Assembly (NCBI RefSeq): GCF_002959855.1
Contig: NZ_PPDB01000003.1
Location: 248,001 to 312,000, forward strand
DNA from: Veillonella denticariosi JCM 15641
GTDB taxonomy: Bacteria; Bacillota; Negativicutes; Veillonellales; Veillonellaceae
Direction of reading: 5' to 3'
Length of the DNA stretch: 64,000 nt
This document shows, in pieces, positions 23,929 to 32,397 of this stretch (positions are counted from its first letter, which is position 1; every line of letters starts with the position of its first letter). The notes below the pieces were generated by a model. It made no database searches. It was not told the origin of the DNA and was given only the letters and a program-made list of their open reading frames with translations. The position numbers were made by a program, and so were the translations under genes.

Positions 23929-24168
23929 AAATGTTCCTTCTCGTATAACGTCCCTATGAAATATGTGCATGAAAGCAGTAACATATATGCTAAGTAAAAT
24001 ATAGGTTAAGTAAAATAAATACGCCTGTAATCATAACGTATTTAACATATCAAAATACACTGTTTCTATTATAGCAAAATCAATATGGCTTTCACATTAA
24101 ATTACATACCGCATAGTATATATTCTTGCACGATTTTTTTAAAAATTAAATGAATTTTAATTTTTAGC

Positions 24169-24198
24169 TTGCATATTGTTCTCAAATGGGTTTATACT
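24169..24198 (+). promoter_or_regulatory. Promoter of the aromatic amino-acid operon
   Basis: TTGCAT (24169-24174) and TATACT (24193-24198) are 18 bases apart. The predicted start near 24205 lies about 27 bases before the leader peptide. The preceding 240 bases are AT-rich with no gene. Confidence 0.7.
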
Positions 24199-24231
24199 GT
24201 ACTCAATAAATTTAGAAAGGAGCAACTAACG

Positions 24232-24318
24232 ATGATTAACCAAATCAACGCAGCAAAACAATACTTTTATTGGTTCTTTATCCAGCGTACGGGTAAGGAA
24301 CTATTTGAGCTGCACTGA
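24232..24318 (+). CDS. Aromatic leader peptide (28 residues) controlling the aro operon
   Basis: A short frame with AAAGGAG ten bases before its ATG encodes 28 residues including the run YFYWFF (codons 24262-24279), six aromatic residues in a row. Two further Phe codons are rare in such a short peptide by chance. It lies directly between the operon promoter and an intrinsic terminator. That is the layout of an attenuator leader: ribosomes stall at the aromatic codons when Tyr, Phe or Trp tRNA is uncharged. The peptide itself probably has no function after release. Assignment rests on sequence and position only. Confidence 0.85.
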   Translation: MINQINAAKQYFYWFFIQRTGKELFELH

Positions 24319-24356
24319 TTTAGATATCATCATTGGTGGCTTGGAATAGTTAAAAG

Positions 24357-24391
24357 GGCTACCCGTATTAGATATACGGGTGGCCTTTTTT
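24357..24391 (+). terminator. Attenuator terminator before aroF
   Basis: GGCTACCCGTAT (24357-24368) pairs over 12 bp with ATACGGGTGGCC (24374-24385), followed by six T. The leader frame contains TACGGGTA (24288-24295), identical to part of the terminator 3' arm and complementary to TACCCGTA (24360-24367). It can therefore act as an antiterminator strand when left uncovered by a stalled ribosome. Confidence 0.88.
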
Positions 24392-24450
24392 ATTTGCCAT
24401 CCCGTATGGTTAGCCCTACTATTCACTGGTAGTCGATAAGGAGGTTTATC

Positions 24451-25467
24451 ATGATTATTACATTGAAACAAAACGCAGCAGCGGAGGAAGTATCCCGTTT
24501 ACGCAGTGAATTAGAGGACCAAGGCTTCATCATCCATCCTGTAGAGGGTACTCGTTACAATATCCTCGGTCTTATCGGCGACACGGCGTCTCTCGATGCG
24601 CGACAGATCGAATCGCTTGATTTTGTAGATAAAGTAACGCGCATACAGGAACCGTACAAAAAGGCGAATCGCAAATTCCATCCGGATGATTCCATCATCA
24701 ACGTTGGGGGCGCCCTCATCGGTGGCGGCCACTTCGCCGTAATGGCGGGCCCTTGCTCCGTAGAAACACCGGAACAGGTTCTAGAAACCGCAAAAGCTTG
24801 TAAGGAAGCGGGGGCCACGATTCTTCGCGGCGGAGCTTTCAAACCTCGTACATCCCCATACTCCTTCCAAGGCATGGGACCCGAAGGTCTCGAATTACTG
24901 GAGCTTGCTAAAAAAGAAACAGGCCTTCCTATCGTTTCGGAAGTAATGGATATTTCCCAACTGCAATACTTCGATAATGTGGATATGCTTCAAATCGGTG
25001 CACGTAACATGCAGAACTTCACACTACTTAAAGAAGTGGGCAAAATGAAGAAACCGATCTTGTTAAAACGCGGTTTGTCCGCTACTTACGAAGAATGGTT
25101 GATGGCTGCCGAATACATCATGAGCGAAGGGAACGAACAAATCGTCCTTTGCGAACGCGGTATTCGTACATTCGAACCTAAAACGAGAAATACATTGGAC
25201 GTAACGGCCATTCCGATGATGCACGAACTGTCCCACTTGCCGATTATCATGGATCCGTCCCATGCAGCGGGCATGAGCCGTATGGTACGGCCGCTTTCAC
25301 TGGCATCCGTAGGCGGTGGAGCGGACGGACTCATGATCGAGGTGCACAACAATCCGGCCAAAGCATTATGCGACGGCCCTCAGGCATTGCGTCCCGATCA
25401 ATTCAACAGCTTAATGAAAGAAGTACAGGCATTACGTAATGCATTAACAGAGTGTATCGACCGCTAA
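24451..25467 (+). CDS. aroF: 3-deoxy-7-phosphoheptulonate (DAHP) synthase, type I-beta
   Basis: First enzyme of the shikimate pathway, condensing phosphoenolpyruvate with erythrose 4-phosphate. Residues 1 to about 70 form a ferredoxin-like regulatory domain and the rest the KDO8P/DAHP barrel. Signatures include AVMAGPCSVET, GGAFKPRTSPYSFQG, LLKRGL and IIMDPSHAAG with metal-site residues. The 338-residue length is normal for the short I-beta type. AAGGAGG precedes the ATG. It is the first enzyme gene after the leader peptide and attenuator, followed 17 bases later by aroB, so aromatic starvation should raise its expression. Confidence 0.94.
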   Translation: MIITLKQNAAAEEVSRLRSELEDQGFIIHPVEGTRYNILGLIGDTASLDARQIESLDFVDKVTRIQEPYKKANRKFHPDDSIINVGGALIGGGHFAVMAGPCSVETPEQVLETAKACKEAGATILRGGAFKPRTSPYSFQGMGPEGLELLELAKKETGLPIVSEVMDISQLQYFDNVDMLQIGARNMQNFTLLKEVGKMKKPILLKRGLSATYEEWLMAAEYIMSEGNEQIVLCERGIRTFEPKTRNTLDVTAIPMMHELSHLPIIMDPSHAAGMSRMVRPLSLASVGGGADGLMIEVHNNPAKALCDGPQALRPDQFNSLMKEVQALRNALTECIDR

Positions 25468-25484
25468 ACCAGAAAGGATTTCCC

Positions 25485-26537
25485 ATGTTTCGCATCCATA
25501 TTAACGCGTCCGAACCGTACGACGTGGTGATTGAAAATAATTCATTATCGCACATTTCCGACTATATTCGCCCCCTCAAGGAACCGTACCGGGTCATCAT
25601 CGTCAGCGATGATAATGTGGCCCCCCTCTACCTGAAAATGGTGAAAGCCAACCTCACCGGGGCGGGATACAGCGTATGTGAGTACGTCTTTCCTCACGGC
25701 GAAGACGAGAAAAATGCAACCCGTCTCATCGATTTGGTAGAGTATATGGCGGATCAGTCCTTAACGCGCAAGGATCTGCTCATCGCCTTGGGCGGCGGTG
25801 TTGTCGGCGATATGGCGGGCTTTGCGGCGGCCACCTATCTACGGGGTATCGATTACGTACAGGTACCGACATCCCTGTTGGCTGCGGTCGATTCCTCCGT
25901 CGGCGGCAAAACAGCGGTCAATCTGAAGGCAGGCAAAAATCTGTGGGGCGCTTTCAAACAGCCTATCCTGGTATTATGCGATACAACGACGCTCGATACA
26001 TTACCGCGAAAAGAATGGATTAATGGATGCGGCGAAATCATCAAATACGGATTCCTCGACGTGCCCGGCCTGTTGACACAGCTGGAAAACAAACCGCTGT
26101 TAGAAAACCGGGAAAAGGCGATTGATATCATCGCTCGCTGCGTACAGGCAAAAGCGGATATCGTCGAACAGGATGAACGGGAATCCGGCGTACGGGCCTT
26201 ACTCAATCTGGGGCATACCTTCGGTCACGGTATCGAAAAGGCGAGCCATTTTAAAATTCCTCATGGAAATGCTGTAGCCATCGGCATGGTCTTAATGGCA
26301 CAAGGGGCCGTACATCATGATAACCTCAATCCTACCGTCGTAACGAAATTAAAAAAACTGTTAGCGGCCCATGAATTACCTACAGAAACATCCATTAGGG
26401 CAGATGAATTACTGGAAGCAGCCAAACACGATAAAAAAAGTCAGGGAGACACTATCAAAATCGTCGTTCCTACCGACTACGGTCACAGTAAGCTCAAGGT
26501 GGTTACGCACGAAGAACTCAGAGGTTATCTTGTATAA
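25485..26537 (+). CDS. aroB: 3-dehydroquinate synthase
   Basis: Second shikimate enzyme, an NAD- and metal-dependent cyclase of 350 residues. Motifs: FPHGEDEKN, ALGGGVVGDMAGFAAA, VPTSLLAAVDSSVGGK and the metal-binding LNLGHTFGHGIE. The ATG at 25485 follows AGAAAGGA; an upstream in-frame start at 25452 would overlap aroF and is rejected. It lies 17 bases after aroF and 40 bases before aroA, within one operon. Confidence 0.95.
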   Translation: MFRIHINASEPYDVVIENNSLSHISDYIRPLKEPYRVIIVSDDNVAPLYLKMVKANLTGAGYSVCEYVFPHGEDEKNATRLIDLVEYMADQSLTRKDLLIALGGGVVGDMAGFAAATYLRGIDYVQVPTSLLAAVDSSVGGKTAVNLKAGKNLWGAFKQPILVLCDTTTLDTLPRKEWINGCGEIIKYGFLDVPGLLTQLENKPLLENREKAIDIIARCVQAKADIVEQDERESGVRALLNLGHTFGHGIEKASHFKIPHGNAVAIGMVLMAQGAVHHDNLNPTVVTKLKKLLAAHELPTETSIRADELLEAAKHDKKSQGDTIKIVVPTDYGHSKLKVVTHEELRGYLV

Positions 26538-26577
26538 TAGATGTTGAATATGATGTATTATCTACAAAGGAGATGCC

Positions 26578-27849
26578 ATGTATTCCGTAACGAACACCCT
26601 CTTGCGAGGCACAATCGACTCCATACCGGCTAAGGCGCACGCCCATCGGGCGCTCATATGCGCCGCATTGGCGCCGACACCGTCTACAATTCTATTGAGC
26701 CGTACCTCAAGGGATATCGATGCTACGATGGATTCATTGCGCGCCCTCGGTGCCGATATAACCTATAAACAGCAAATCGTTACCGTCAATCCCGGTCCGC
26801 CTCCTGCAGTCGGCAAAATACTGCCCCATGAGTCGGGCACCACGCTGCGGCTTCTATTGCCGGTATCCGCCTCTCTGTGCGATACCGTGGATGTCGATGC
26901 AAAGGGCCGCTTGCCGGAACGCCCCCTGGAACCTTTATTAAGCGAAATGAAGCGTCACGGTGTGCAGTTCTCAAAGAATGCGCCGCCGTTCACGATGAAA
27001 GGTCTCCTCAAAGGCGGCGATTTCAATATGGTCGGTGACGTGAGCAGCCAGTTCTTCTCGGGATTACTGTTAGCCGCTCCTCAACTGGGGCATACGGCAA
27101 TTACATCTACCACATCTCTGCAGTCGCGAGATTATGTGACGTTAACATTGACGACGATGGCGGATTTCGGTATCACGGTTGAACATCAGGAAGCAACAGC
27201 CGCACAGAACGAGACTTTCACCATCAATGATATGTCCACGTTCGTAGGACGAAACCATTATCAGATTGAAGGCGATTGGTCCAATGCTGCTATTTGGATG
27301 GTCGCTGCGGCCATGACCGGCGAATCCATTACGATTACGGGCATGAATCCGGACTCCGTACAGGCGGACCGACGCATCATGGATATCATCAGCGCCTCGG
27401 GTGCGACTATTACATGGAACGGATCAAATCTGACCGTATCGGGTCGCGCCACTACGCCATTGACGATCGATCTCGATCAATGTCCCGATTTATTGCCGGT
27501 TCTGTCGGCCCTCGCCTGTTCTATCTCAGGTGAAAGCGCCTTTATCAACGGTGCCAGACTTCGCCTCAAGGAATCGGACAGGCTGAACGCGGTGGCAAAG
27601 CTCGTGTCCGATTTAGGTGGCACGGTGCGCCAGGAAGGTGATAATATATATATTACAGGTACAGGAAGCCTCACAGGAGGCCTTGCAGACTGCGTCAATG
27701 ATCACCGCCTCGTCATGGCCGGCGCATTGATGGCGCTCATCAGTACGAATCCGGTACGACTCAAAGACAGTGAAGCCATCACGAAATCCTATCCGGATTT
27801 CTTCACGGACTGGAATTTGTTAGCCGGTTCGGCAACGGAAGTCTATTAA
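26578..27849 (+). CDS. aroA: 5-enolpyruvylshikimate-3-phosphate synthase
   Basis: Sixth shikimate enzyme, joining shikimate 3-phosphate and phosphoenolpyruvate. Two-lobed fold, 423 residues. Recognisable blocks: SIPAKAHAHRALICAA near residue 15, HESGTTLRLLLPV (the position of the glyphosate-sensitive loop, normally NAGTxxR), VGDVSSQFFSGLLLAAP, and RLRLKESDRLNAV. The SGTTLRLL form fits class II-like enzymes, in which glyphosate tolerance varies. AAAGGAG precedes the ATG. It is the third gene of the operon. Confidence 0.94.
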   Translation: MYSVTNTLLRGTIDSIPAKAHAHRALICAALAPTPSTILLSRTSRDIDATMDSLRALGADITYKQQIVTVNPGPPPAVGKILPHESGTTLRLLLPVSASLCDTVDVDAKGRLPERPLEPLLSEMKRHGVQFSKNAPPFTMKGLLKGGDFNMVGDVSSQFFSGLLLAAPQLGHTAITSTTSLQSRDYVTLTLTTMADFGITVEHQEATAAQNETFTINDMSTFVGRNHYQIEGDWSNAAIWMVAAAMTGESITITGMNPDSVQADRRIMDIISASGATITWNGSNLTVSGRATTPLTIDLDQCPDLLPVLSALACSISGESAFINGARLRLKESDRLNAVAKLVSDLGGTVRQEGDNIYITGTGSLTGGLADCVNDHRLVMAGALMALISTNPVRLKDSEAITKSYPDFFTDWNLLAGSATEVY

Positions 27850-27894
27850 GTCTTATTCAAGCCAAACCGGATTTATAAAATGGTCACATAAAAT

Positions 27895-27924
27895 CATTTA
27901 ATATTTAGTCATTTAATATTTAGT
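27895..27924. repeat. Tandem 15-bp duplication in the aroA-aroC gap
   Basis: CATTTAATATTTAGT occurs twice head to tail in the 161-bp AT-rich gap. No gene is present. An extra promoter for aroC and downstream genes is possible, but no clear -35/-10 pair was chosen. Confidence 0.6.
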
Positions 27925-28010
27925 CGATATTTTAATAGGAATCGCATAATAATAGGGTCTTTATTTCATTCCATATATTCAACATGTTTCAAGTGATATC
28001 AGGAGGACGT

Positions 28011-29105
28011 ATGTCATCGAGTTTCGGTAAAACAATTCAGGTATCCACCTTCGGTGCCTCCCACGGCTATGCCATCGGAGGCGTCGTGGACGGTCTGCCT
28101 TGCGGTTATCACATCGACAGGGATAAACTGCAGGCATTCCTGCGCCGTCGTGCGCCGGGGCAAAACCAATTCCAAACGCAACGTAAAGAAGCGGATGTAC
28201 CGGAATTTTTATCGGGTCTCGTAGATGATACGTTGAGCGGATCCCCGCTGGCCTTCATGATTCGCAATACATCACAGCACTCCGGCGATTACAATAACTT
28301 ACGGGATATTCCTCGCCCATCCCATGCCGATTTTACAGCTCGTATGCGCTACGGAGACAAGGTTGATATGCGCGGCGGCGGACACTTCTCGGCCCGTCTC
28401 ACGGCACCTCTTTGCGTTGCCGGCGGCATTGCATTACAGTTGCTCGCCCGAAAAGGCATCCGCATTCACGGTCATCTGAAACAGGTGGGCCCCATTCAGG
28501 ATGCTTCTGTCGACATGGTACACCCCGATATGGATGCCCTCGCCCATATTGCAACTGAACCGATTACCATGCTGGATGAATCTAAACAACAAGAGGTTGA
28601 AAGTCTCGTACTGAAACTAAAAAGCGAAGGCGATTCCACCGGCGGCATCGTCGAGATCATCGCTACAGGCTTACCGGCAGGGTTGGGAAACCCTAATTTT
28701 GACGGCATCGAAAACCGCCTGGCCCGCGTTATATTCGGAGTGCCGGCCATAAAAGGCGTATCATTCGGAGGCGGCTTTAACATGTGCTCCGCCTTGGGGT
28801 CTGAGGTAAATGATGCTTTCACCATGAACGGCCATACCGTAACGACTACGACGAACAACAGCGGCGGCATCCAGGGCGGCATTACCAACGGTTTACCGCT
28901 CGTCATGCAGGTGGGCATCAAGCCGACCCCGTCCATTTACAAGGAGCAGCGCTCCGTGTCATTGTCAAAAGAAGAGGACACCCTGCTCACCATAAAAGGG
29001 CGCCACGATCCGTGCGTAGCATTACGCGCCGTACCCGTCATCGAAGCCGTTACGGCCCTCGTATTGTTAGATTTCCTAGGAGATATTGACCATGAACTTA
29101 GATGA
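28011..29105 (+). CDS. aroC: Chorismate synthase
   Basis: Last shikimate enzyme, forming chorismate with reduced FMN. The 364-residue protein has the N-terminal FGASHGYAIGGVVDGLP, the central RPSHAD region (IPRPSHADFTARMRYG) and GGRxSAR-like RGGGHFSARLTAP. The ATG at 28011 follows CAGGAGGACGT; an upstream ATG at 27984 has no ribosome site. The 3' end overlaps the start of pheA by 14 bases, so the two are translationally coupled. Confidence 0.95.
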   Translation: MSSSFGKTIQVSTFGASHGYAIGGVVDGLPCGYHIDRDKLQAFLRRRAPGQNQFQTQRKEADVPEFLSGLVDDTLSGSPLAFMIRNTSQHSGDYNNLRDIPRPSHADFTARMRYGDKVDMRGGGHFSARLTAPLCVAGGIALQLLARKGIRIHGHLKQVGPIQDASVDMVHPDMDALAHIATEPITMLDESKQQEVESLVLKLKSEGDSTGGIVEIIATGLPAGLGNPNFDGIENRLARVIFGVPAIKGVSFGGGFNMCSALGSEVNDAFTMNGHTVTTTTNNSGGIQGGITNGLPLVMQVGIKPTPSIYKEQRSVSLSKEEDTLLTIKGRHDPCVALRAVPVIEAVTALVLLDFLGDIDHELR

Positions 29106-30231
29106 AATACGCGTTAAAATCAACGATATCAACGAGCAGATGCTGAGCCTGTTCAAAGAACGCATGGCGCTCTCCAAAGATGTGGCGAAAGCAAAAAAAG
29201 AAATGAACAAAGCCGTATACGATCCGAAACGGGAGCGCGATATTTTAGATAAGGTCACCTTGGAGGCGGGGCCGGACATGGATCTATACGCCCGTCGATT
29301 CTTTGAATCTCTCTTCAGTTTAAGCCGCACCTATCAGGCGGAACAATTATTTCAAAACACGGAATTCACGCAGAAGATGAAAGCCGCCGTCGAAGCATCC
29401 CCTACATTGCCGCCGCAGCGTGGCAGCGTAGCCTGTGCCGGCGTATTCGGCAGCAATGCTCAAATGGCGTGTGACCGCCTGTTGCCGCTCAGCCAGATTC
29501 ATTATGTAACGGGATTTCATGCCGTATTTGATGCGGTCGAATCCGGCGAATGCGAATTCGGCGTGTTGCCTATCGAAAACAGCTCCAACGGTTCCGTCAA
29601 GGAAGTATACGACCTCTTGGAGGAACATAAATGCTATATCGTACGCGGCACACGCCTTTGGATTTCTCACGACTTACTCGTAAAAAAGGGAACTCAATTA
29701 TCCGATATTCACACCATCATTTCACATCCTCAAGCACTGGGGCAATGCAGTCAGTACTTGGAAACCCTAACAGGCGTTACCTTGCGTTCCTTCGATAATA
29801 CGGCACGTGCCGCACAGCTCGTAGCCGCCAGCGATGATCCGGGTGTAGCCGCTATTGCGGCACCGCAATGTGCGGAGCTGTACAATTTAACCCCGATTGC
29901 CCGCAACATTCAGAACAGCGACAATAACTATACACGATTCATCTGCATCAGCAAGAACTTTCATGTATACCCGGGGGCCAACAAAATATCCGTGGTAACC
30001 TCGGCAAACCATGCACCGGGAGGGCTCGGAGCCTTATTGACAAAGTTTGCCAATATCGGTGTCAACTTGACGAAGCTCGAGTCAAGACCGATTGTGGGAC
30101 ATAACTTTGAATTCCTCTTCTACCTCGATTTGGAAGCCTCCTTGGCGGATCCTAAAGTGCTTTCCGTCCTTGCGGAACTGCACACATCACAGGATAAATT
30201 CCGCCTGCTCGGAAACTATCCGGAAAATTAA
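29092..30231 (+). CDS. pheA: Bifunctional chorismate mutase / prephenate dehydratase (P-protein)
   Basis: Converts chorismate to prephenate and then to phenylpyruvate, committing to phenylalanine. Residues 1 to about 85 are an AroQ-type chorismate mutase (MNLDEIRVKINDINEQML, YDPKRERDIL). Residues about 110-285 are the dehydratase (GVFGSNAQMACDRLL, LPIENSSNGSV, ISHPQALGQCSQYL). An ACT domain follows with NLTKLESRPI, the ESRP motif linked to phenylalanine feedback. The ATG at 29092 follows TAGGAG. Tyrosine-branch genes (tyrA) are not in the window. Confidence 0.95.
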   Translation: MNLDEIRVKINDINEQMLSLFKERMALSKDVAKAKKEMNKAVYDPKRERDILDKVTLEAGPDMDLYARRFFESLFSLSRTYQAEQLFQNTEFTQKMKAAVEASPTLPPQRGSVACAGVFGSNAQMACDRLLPLSQIHYVTGFHAVFDAVESGECEFGVLPIENSSNGSVKEVYDLLEEHKCYIVRGTRLWISHDLLVKKGTQLSDIHTIISHPQALGQCSQYLETLTGVTLRSFDNTARAAQLVAASDDPGVAAIAAPQCAELYNLTPIARNIQNSDNNYTRFICISKNFHVYPGANKISVVTSANHAPGGLGALLTKFANIGVNLTKLESRPIVGHNFEFLFYLDLEASLADPKVLSVLAELHTSQDKFRLLGNYPEN

Positions 30232-30249
30232 TGCATACAATAACAACAC

Positions 30250-30283
30250 ATGGCTAATAGAGTTGCCAGTCTCTATTAGCCAT
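30250..30283 (+). other. Intra-operon hairpin between pheA and aroE/aroK
   Basis: ATGGCTAATAGAG pairs perfectly over 13 bp with CTCTATTAGCCAT around an 8-base loop. It has no following T-run, so it may stabilise or process the polycistronic mRNA instead of ending it. Confidence 0.65.
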
Positions 30284-30314
30284 TATCTACTTATAAACCT
30301 GATCAGGAGGTCCT

Positions 30315-31550
30315 ATGAAATTTGGTTTACTCGGCCGCACCTTGGGCCACAGCTATTCCCCACGCATTCACGGAGCATTGGGAAACGATAATTACGAATT
30401 ATTTGAGCGTGAACCCGGTGAGCTGCGGGACTTCTTTAACGACCCAGATTTACAGGGCATCAACATCACCATTCCCTATAAAATCAACGCCCTCGAAGCC
30501 TGTGCTGTCGTAGATCCGCGGGCAGAACGCATCGGATGCGTCAATACCATGGTGCGCCGCCACGGACGCTGGCACGGATACAATACGGACTATGACGGCT
30601 TTGTGTTCACATTACAGCACGCAGGCATCGATGTAAAAGATAAGAAATGTATCATCCTCGGCGACGGTGCTTCATCCAAGACGGTTCATATCGCCCTCGA
30701 GGATTTAGGGGCCCGCGCTATCATCCACGTATCTCGTCATGAACCGCCATTCTATGACGAGATCGATCAATTCAGGGACACCGCTCAGGTCATCATCAAC
30801 TGCACGCCGGTCGGCATGTATCCGAACAGCCCTCAGGCGCTGATTGACATAACAAACTTCACGGTCCTCACCGGCGTGGTGGATCTCATCTACAATCCGC
30901 GCCGCACCGTGCTCCTGTTGCAGGCCGAGATTATGGATATTCCTTACAGCGACGGCCTGCCGTTTCTCGTGGCGCAAGGCGTTGAGGCGGCCAAGCATTT
31001 CCAAGGTGAAAGCTTCGGTTCCGCAGAAATTGAACAGATTTTACGCGACATGCGTCACGAAAAAGAAAACATCATCCTCATCGGTATGCCCGGTGTCGGT
31101 AAAACGACGATGGGCAGGGCCCTCGGCAAGGCTCTGAATCGCAAATGGCTTGACGCAGACAAGGAACTGACAAAGGAAACCGGCAACATCTCCGACTATA
31201 TTACAACTCACGGAGAGGACGCCTTTCGAAGAGAAGAAACAAAAATACTTGCTAAATTGGGACAACAAACAGGACTTGTCATCTCAACCGGAGGCGGCTG
31301 CGTTACAGTGCCTCAGAACTTCACCCATTTGCGCCAAAACGGCCGCATTTACCAACTGACCCAACCGGTCGAAAGACTGTCCACGGAAGGACGTGTACTC
31401 TCCCAAGGCGGTATCGACCGATTGCGCGAATTGGAGGCCGTCCGTACACCTATGTACGAATCCTTCGCACAATGCATCATAAAACATCGGCGCAATATAC
31501 CGGAAACGGTAAAGCGTATCATAGAGGATTTTGAGGCACACTTGCTCTAA
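30315..31550 (+). CDS. aroEK: Fused shikimate dehydrogenase - shikimate kinase
   Basis: One 411-residue frame carries two consecutive shikimate-pathway enzymes. Residues 1 to about 245 are AroE: LGHSYSPRIHGALG, GINITIPYK with the catalytic Lys, CVNTMV and YNTDYDGF with the catalytic Asp. The nucleotide loop reads GDGASSKTV instead of the usual GxGGAxxA. Residues about 253-411 are AroK: Walker A GMPGVGKTTMGRALG, DADKELTKETG and STGGGCVTVP. No stop or frameshift separates the halves. CAGGAGG precedes the ATG. Reaction order (dehydrogenase then kinase) matches domain order. It closes the operon before a terminator. Confidence 0.93.
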   Translation: MKFGLLGRTLGHSYSPRIHGALGNDNYELFEREPGELRDFFNDPDLQGINITIPYKINALEACAVVDPRAERIGCVNTMVRRHGRWHGYNTDYDGFVFTLQHAGIDVKDKKCIILGDGASSKTVHIALEDLGARAIIHVSRHEPPFYDEIDQFRDTAQVIINCTPVGMYPNSPQALIDITNFTVLTGVVDLIYNPRRTVLLLQAEIMDIPYSDGLPFLVAQGVEAAKHFQGESFGSAEIEQILRDMRHEKENIILIGMPGVGKTTMGRALGKALNRKWLDADKELTKETGNISDYITTHGEDAFRREETKILAKLGQQTGLVISTGGGCVTVPQNFTHLRQNGRIYQLTQPVERLSTEGRVLSQGGIDRLRELEAVRTPMYESFAQCIIKHRRNIPETVKRIIEDFEAHLL

Positions 31551-31576
31551 GAGTCTCTACATAGGGCATGAATATA

Positions 31577-31604
31577 TAAAAAGTCGGCTTTCGCCGACTT
31601 TTTT
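31577..31604. terminator. Bidirectional terminator between aroEK and aroD
   Basis: AAAAAGTCGGC and GCCGACTTTTTT form a stem around a TTTC loop. It ends the aro operon on the plus strand and, with the flanking A-run, also serves aroD; it overlaps the aroD stop codon. Confidence 0.92.
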
Positions 31605-32397
31605 AATGCACTTTTACGCGTGTATGTTGTTGTTCGTCAAAGACTCCGTCCACATCAATGGTATCGAGGATACGTTTTAATTCATATACATCGATTTGAC
31701 CGGGTGCAGAGTTCTTCCCTGCAGCGGCGAATGTCATAGCATTACCGAACAGCGCCCCTGCAGTACGTGTCACAGTACCTAAGGGGCCCATCGCAATAGT
31801 AATGATAGGATCAGCCGGATAGAGAGCTTTCACCTCGGCAGTCGCCTCCAAAAGGGTCAACACATCCCCCGTTGTATGTGGCATAATCGCAATTTTAGGC
31901 ACATCCGCCAACAATTCTTTCATCTGTAATAGTCGGTTGACGATGACCTCACGAGGTGGCGTTCCGTTGAAATCATGATTACTCATGACGACCGTAACGT
32001 GATGCATCTTTGCAAATTCAATGGTTTTCAGCATACGATCCTGATCAAAGAAGAGTTCTATATCAATCGCATCGACGAGGCCCGTCGGAATAAGTCGTTC
32101 CAGCATAGTAAAATACGCCTCTGTTGAAATAGCGCGCTCGCCCCCTTCGCCCTTAGTACGCCACGTAAATAACAGCCCGCGACCTTTCAGTTGAGGTTTG
32201 ATGAGCATCAGCAGTTCAATGACGGCATCGATGGAATCGGCCCGTTCATAATAATCAATGCGTAGCTCCACTACATGACAAGGGGCGTTACAAGCCAATG
32301 CCGTCGCATCCAAAATTTCTTTCATGGTCGTACCCACAATGGGCACGCAAATTTTTGTACCCCTTTCACCGAGTACAGCTTGACCGATACGAACCAT
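31603..32397 (-). CDS. aroD: 3-dehydroquinate dehydratase, type I
   Basis: Third shikimate enzyme, a Schiff-base class I dehydratase of 264 residues. Family marks: ELRIDYYERADS near residue 50, LLFTWRTKGEGGE, the catalytic His in VVMSNHDFNGTP and the Schiff-base Lys in VPKIAIMPHT. The ATG at 32397 follows AAAGGAG; a longer open frame upstream overlaps the MFS gene and is not coding. It supplies the step missing from the plus-strand aro operon but is transcribed in the opposite direction, behind an MFS transporter gene, so it is not under the aromatic attenuator. Confidence 0.93.
   Translation of the reverse strand: MVRIGQAVLGERGTKICVPIVGTTMKEILDATALACNAPCHVVELRIDYYERADSIDAVIELLMLIKPQLKGRGLLFTWRTKGEGGERAISTEAYFTMLERLIPTGLVDAIDIELFFDQDRMLKTIEFAKMHHVTVVMSNHDFNGTPPREVIVNRLLQMKELLADVPKIAIMPHTTGDVLTLLEATAEVKALYPADPIITIAMGPLGTVTRTAGALFGNAMTFAAAGKNSAPGQIDVYELKRILDTIDVDGVFDEQQHTRVKVH

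Follow-up and report, generated by a model that had tools for sequence, protein, structure and literature searches.

A predicted ribosome-mediated attenuator with a mixed aromatic leader peptide upstream of the Veillonella aroF operon, and its relatives in Bacillota

What controls transcription of the aroF operon in Veillonella denticariosi, and does the short reading frame with six consecutive aromatic codons in front of it take part in this control? The region lies within the window (the whole stretch of 64,000 nucleotides that was analysed) and comprises the following elements:

24169..24198 (+), putative promoter read from the sequence: TTGCAT (24169-24174), 18 nt, TATACT (24193-24198)
24218..24223 (+), Shine-Dalgarno sequence AAGGAG of the leader ORF, from the sequence
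24220..24342 (+), outer helices that the untranslated leader forms over long range in the MFE fold: 24220-24254 with 24309-24342
24232..24318 (+), leader ORF MINQINAAKQYFYWFFIQRTGKELFELH, 28 codons plus TGA, from the sequence and relatives
24262..24279 (+), aromatic regulatory codons Tyr-Phe-Tyr-Trp-Phe-Phe (Y11-F16, YFYWFF)
24271..24283 (+), strand 1, UGGUUCUUUAUCC, overlapping the W-F-F codons and pairing with 24291-24303 (anti-antiterminator 1:2)
24287..24306 (+), strand 2, GUACGGGUA plus AACUAUUU, partner of strand 1 or strand 3
24344..24368 (+), strand 3, GAAUAGUU plus UACCCGUAU, including the 5' arm of the terminator and pairing with strand 2 or 4
24352..24391 (+), intrinsic terminator (3:4) with U run, from its energy (-26.2 kcal/mol) and covariation
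24451..25467 (+), aroF, DAHP synthase with an N-terminal ferredoxin-like domain (PF00793, PF18152)
25485..31550 (+), aroB, aroA, aroC, pheA (chorismate mutase-prephenate dehydratase) and an aroE-aroK fusion, from Pfam

The original prediction of a 28-codon frame with YFYWFF before aroF was confirmed: the frame extends from the ATG at 24232 to the TGA at 24316-24318, with a Shine-Dalgarno sequence just upstream, the GGAG of which is invariant in 24 aligned leaders. Together they make up a candidate short ORF with its own ribosome-binding site and a run of codons for the products of the pathway, situated between a promoter and an intrinsic terminator that lies 60 nt before aroF; a divergent GNAT gene is found on the other side of the leader region. 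The promoter, which had been described as good, deserves this description in so far as the TTGCAT-18-TATACT layout is kept in Veillonella relatives, but its -35 element is weak, for which reason it is absent from the sites returned by a consensus promoter scan. A pattern search of the same genome revealed no second copy of the leader, as the aroF site was the sole mismatch-free match (seven sites in total vs 14 in the control).

The leader has the classic four-strand design with the alternative hairpins 1:2, 2:3 and 3:4, and its overall fold (-68.9 kcal/mol) is far more stable than that of shuffled sequences (-37.0 +/- 4.3, z -7.4). Hairpin 3:4 is the intrinsic terminator between the ORF and the first structural gene; of the 12-bp stem and six T initially described, the six T stand (24386-24391), whereas the stem is somewhat longer, with 17 pairs including an A tract paired with the U run, and a core of about 13 bp. 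The automatic terminator scan did not list it. The segment TACGGGTA (24288-24295) had been proposed to pair with the 5' arm of the terminator, and it is indeed the exact complement of TACCCGTA at 24360-24367; the corresponding antiterminator 2:3 folds with -24.8 kcal/mol and excludes the terminator. Hairpin 1:2, absent from the original prediction, which had only 2:3 and 3:4, joins 24271-24283 to 24291-24303 by 13 bp (-15.5 kcal/mol, z -4.7); it uses the aromatic codons as its 5' arm, i.e. strand 1 overlaps the regulatory codons, and it is the piece that makes the switch. The outer helix, in which 78% of the cells are paired, shows 29 double changes vs 21.3 +/- 3.8 in shuffles, and the GGAG of the Shine-Dalgarno sequence is paired with a conserved downstream partner in 24 of 24 relatives. 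These data lend moderate support to the view that the outer helix would hide the leader's own Shine-Dalgarno sequence and start codon in untranslated RNA, and it may also limit translation of the finished leader RNA.

Analysis of relatives, the closest of which are loci of Veillonella species, bears out the expected conservation of stems and aromatic runs. Leader and terminator are present in all 27 Veillonellaceae aroF loci obtained from genome searches in four genera (13 in the genus itself and 14 in three others), and both were also found in 11 of 11 loci from named contigs, partly from the same species, i.e. in every Veillonellaceae locus examined. The terminator covaries clearly, with 15 double-change cells vs 5.0 in shuffles (0/500). 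In the 24 relatives, 89% of the cells of 2:3 are paired, with four doubly changed pairs, only mildly above shuffles (39/500), and 97.7% of those of 1:2, mostly with U-A/U-G half-changes and one compensatory cell. In strands 1 and 2 the codons hardly vary at synonymous sites (TTC, TTT, ATC, GGT, CTA and TTT in 22/22 leaders), the flanks of the peptide are free to vary, and the codon between the arms of 1:2, next to the run, varies among R, H, S, A and T. Diverged leaders include VYAYFNFISLY (L012 and L122; L numbers denote aroF loci unless stated otherwise), PYFFWYYFF (L121) and AYAYFWYFTQSTGKGYLSC (L094), the last of which looks like an intermediate towards the clostridial ...AGYLSCEK type.

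To relate these pairings to translation, folding was restricted to the RNA beyond a ribosome whose 3' edge was placed 15 nt past the first base of the P site, and the transcript was cut off at 24370-24378, ahead of strand 4. The probability of 2:3 was 1.00 with codons F12-F15 in the A site, 0.97-1.00 with F16, 0.29-0.81 with Y11, at most 0.56 with earlier codons, and 0.00 from I17 on; in the ribosome-free fold 1:2 had a probability of 1.00 and the terminator was free. Moving the 3' edge between P+10 and P+18 kept the antiterminator window within Y11-Q18. Stalling at the regulatory codons, and not at other positions, is thus predicted by folding to favour 2:3. In most of 22 relatives the antiterminator window likewise falls on the aromatic run; in L008, L009, L010, L094 and L112 2:3 also forms when the ribosome occupies certain positions ahead of the run, the window of L116, L117 and L120 is narrower and lies within the run, and L121 does not fit, as it lacks the expected window. 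When strand 4 was included, the terminator won at equilibrium for every ribosome position, the behaviour to be expected if the switch is kinetic; the switch therefore depends on kinetics, which lie outside these folds. Judging from the general size of the footprint, a ribosome that has reached the stop codon would protect about 24298-24330. The original prediction had this ribosome cover TACGGGTA, but because the protected zone misses 24288-24295 the segment would stay uncovered, and this role passes to 1:2 as soon as strand 1 is free.

The anatomy of the leader, its conservation, the alternative pairings and the dependence of the folds on ribosome position, all of them observed here, strongly support attenuation by stalling on aromatic codons, as originally proposed, and the aroF operon is very probably controlled by a ribosome-mediated transcription attenuator of the trpL/pheL type. 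The stalling itself, its kinetics, the amino acids that matter and the extent of the operon are parts of the model that we infer. RNA polymerase would transcribe the leader with a ribosome behind it; when aromatic aminoacyl-tRNA is short, the ribosome would stall on YFYWFF (A site at F12-F16) and mask strand 1, strand 2 would pair with strand 3 before strand 4 emerges, and, with 2:3 formed and no terminator, aroF-aroB-aroA-aroC-pheA-aroEK would be transcribed. With charged tRNAs in ample supply, the ribosome would pass I17, covering and then leaving strand 2, the freed strand 1 would allow 1:2 to re-form, and strand 3 would be left free for the terminator at 24352-24391 to end transcription, yielding a leader RNA of about 187 nt. 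Untranslated RNA would likewise form 1:2 and terminate.

As to the amino acids, Phe is present in every case, Trp has been lost from the run in L112, L118 and L012, and Tyr in L116-L120. That one leader reads Phe, Tyr and Trp at once, as originally proposed, is plausible and would suit a single common-pathway DAHP synthase, but Trp or Tyr is missing from the run of some relatives. A single DAHP synthase is encoded in the genome; a second match, with 33% identity, is adjacent to a kdsB-like gene and presumably represents the related KDO8P synthase. The claim that the leader governs the whole shikimate operon may hold for the co-directional genes aroF-aroB-aroA-aroC-pheA-aroE/aroK, among which the terminator scan found no plus-strand terminator-like site from 24440 to 31800, but not for aroD, located downstream on the opposite strand. 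A 13-bp inverted repeat, ATGGCTAATAGAG...CTCTATTAGCCAT (30250-30283), occurs between pheA and the aroE-aroK fusion and was reported by the scan on the minus strand only. The tyrA and trpE genes are elsewhere in the genome. In another genome of the same genus (G001, listed as 99% complete) we found only a KdsA-like match and no AroF, possibly owing to aromatic auxotrophy or to an assembly gap.

Beyond the family, ORFs with at least six F/W/Y among eight residues are found upstream of aroF at 33 of 67 distant loci, vs 1/240 for other genes there and 0.4% of shuffles, so that their position upstream of aroF is not due to chance. With a looser cut (five in eight) an aromatic ORF was found in 67 of 99 further loci from Negativicutes and other Bacillota. 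The notion of a leader in all Bacillota was rejected, as the phylum sample of more distant AroF proteins (L225-L264) provided about four convincing leaders in 40 loci. Long aromatic leaders before aroF occur in other Negativicutes (L124/L064/L192 and L125/L205, MNVTNAYGFSYQSYYFFSFGYFAWEN... and MHNLAIFSFIFAYVYFSWSYYYSFGF...). A simple duplex energy of the whole leader against strand 3 was abandoned, as noise was excessive in AT-rich genomes (mean z -0.33). When only the ORF segment beyond the aromatic run was compared, with strand 4 as control, a strand 2 copy complementary to strand 3 was detected in 26 of 85 loci at p<=0.05 and in 10 at p<=0.01 (control: 7 and 2), and the complementary pairs differ in sequence between unrelated clades (TAATGAGT/ACTCATTA, CTAATGAGC/GCTCATTAG, TTTGCTGC/GCAGCAAA). 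In folds of these loci, predicted pairing of strand 3 into the ORF was 0.50 with a stalled ribosome vs 0.31 without a ribosome (Wilcoxon p about 1e-8 over 85 loci, which are phylogenetically non-independent).

These data bear on the alternative that the terminator is real but the ORF merely couples translation to transcription, or senses the general rate of translation, the aromatic run being a by-product of U-rich pairing strands. RNA pairing alone would yield some Phe, as strand 1 is U-rich and UUY encodes Phe, and the codons in strands 1 and 2 are indeed constrained at the nucleotide level; however, Y11-F12-Y13 lie outside strand 1 and are aromatic nonetheless, distant leaders with different RNA strands retain a high density of F, Y and W, and the aromatic ORFs are specific to the upstream regions of aroF. 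We therefore regard this alternative as highly improbable.

Many of the distant leaders share the peptide motif FS-x-GYFFS-x-GYF, with Ser nearly always encoded by AGC. At the RNA level we observed a tandem motif, UUUAGC-N4-GGCUAYUUU / UUUAGC-GYYG-GYUAUUUU, in the leader ORFs of L157, L190, L195-L197, L210, L216 and others, each half of which can make a small hairpin (UAGC...GCUA). The common peptide motif, together with the good conservation of the leader peptide, would agree with a nascent peptide that senses a free aromatic metabolite and itself arrests the ribosome (TnaC or arrest-peptide type). Such an arrest is nevertheless extremely unlikely here: the residue adjoining the run varies within Veillonellaceae, where conservation tracks the nucleotide strands, and an arrest triggered by excess product would switch the operon the wrong way, since a ribosome stalled on the run yields the antiterminator.

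T-boxes are the other device found in front of aroF. Searches with Rfam models identified them in 13 of 20 leaderless aroF loci of a first set, and in none of 20 clostridial leaderless loci of a second. A third set of 40 loci, most of them leaderless, gave six; its stretches were stored in both orientations, and some of the six T-boxes lie on the complementary strand of the stretch as stored. In 20 loci with a leader, the strand carrying aroF showed no T-box immediately upstream of the gene. They are located close upstream of leaderless aroF in several of L165-L181, L129, L191, L230 and L264 (Selenomonadaceae and others), and about 1 kb upstream in L166, L171, L174, L178 and L181. In the genome studied here, a T-box match directly precedes trpE (G000:C1:110621-110896, L275/L283; 63.8 bits, E 1e-13, below the Rfam cutoff), and this leader has the motif AAGGTGGTACCGCG and a terminator; aroF and trp therefore seem to use different sensors of tRNA charge in one genome. 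That the aroF operon itself is controlled by a T-box or a small-molecule riboswitch, with the ORF incidental, is scarcely credible in spite of the T-box-like leader of trpE and the T-boxes before aroF in many other Negativicutes, as no Rfam family reaches its gathering score in 24150-24460, the region upstream of aroF gives no match to the T-box model (RF00230), and a whole-genome T-box search returned no site at the aroF leader.

When the leader label is mapped on a 155-row AroF tree, it requires 19 changes vs 44 in shuffles; one clade of 25 contains 12 T-boxes and no leader, and a group of 123 contains 95 leaders and one T-box. From these sequence comparisons, aromatic leaders appear to be frequent across Bacillota in front of the genes of one large AroF clade, with T-boxes in the sister clade instead. 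We somewhat favour the interpretation that the Veillonella attenuator is a branch of an old, undescribed family of Bacillota aroF leaders (with members in Treponema MAGs), inherited with the large AroF clade, in which the UUUAGC-N4-GGCUAYUUU... (FS-x-GYFFS-x-GYF) motif recurs and strands 2 and 3 covary rapidly, which replaces the T-box of the sister clade, and in which several lineages read Phe, Tyr and Trp in one leader.

The principle of attenuation is textbook knowledge (trpL, pheL), and its use before aroF is also known. In E. coli, pheL-pheA, pheM-pheST and trpL-trpE have the four-strand arrangement 1:2/2:3/3:4, with regulatory codons overlapping strand 1 and an intrinsic terminator. Unlike the mixed run of Veillonella, pheL, pheM and trpL each read one amino acid, and their target genes are different; the Rfam model Phe_leader (RF01859) did not match our leader (14.2 bits vs a gathering cutoff of 55), and Trp_leader was not listed. 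The position before aroF, as originally proposed, is correct, but this is not the first aromatic attenuator described there: aroR-aroF of C. glutamicum, with an aromatic leader peptide and ribosome-mediated attenuation, precedes it (Neshat et al. 2014, via PMC11802643 and PMC4046766). Going by the published description, both have consecutive aromatic codons in a leader peptide before the aroF operon; aroR differs in that it comes from another phylum and has a Phe-Tyr-Phe run without Trp, and, as summarised in PMC11802643, Phe limitation matters there, Tyr availability being without effect. An aromatic leader has also been suspected for E. coli aroF (Camakaris 1980, as cited in PMC8632094). Similar by description is uORFC-13-1 of Acholeplasma, a predicted uORF that has Phe codons and a terminator immediately ahead of aroF; its 24 reported representatives come only from Acholeplasma and from environmental sequences without assignment, and Phe is emphasised. 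Other motifs from Veillonella appear in that study, but its main text describes no Veillonella aroF leader (PMC8632094). Leader peptides in Firmicutes have been argued for hisS (PMC2965389) and later for his operons (PMC9413887). In the main texts of the open-access literature searched, we found no description of the aroF leader of Veillonella or of the wider set, and a wider family, which is likely, is worth describing. The Veillonella leader represents a complete, testable candidate switch at the start of the aromatic amino acid pathway in a genus abundant in the human mouth and gut. The aroF T-boxes of Selenomonadaceae and other Negativicutes (RF00230) resemble it in serving the same gene and in the logic by which low charged tRNA would lead to antitermination, but they sense tRNA directly, without an ORF, and belong to the sister AroF clade, in which no aromatic leader was found. 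The apparently widespread leader family offers a swap between leader peptide and T-box at one gene that can be traced along the tree.
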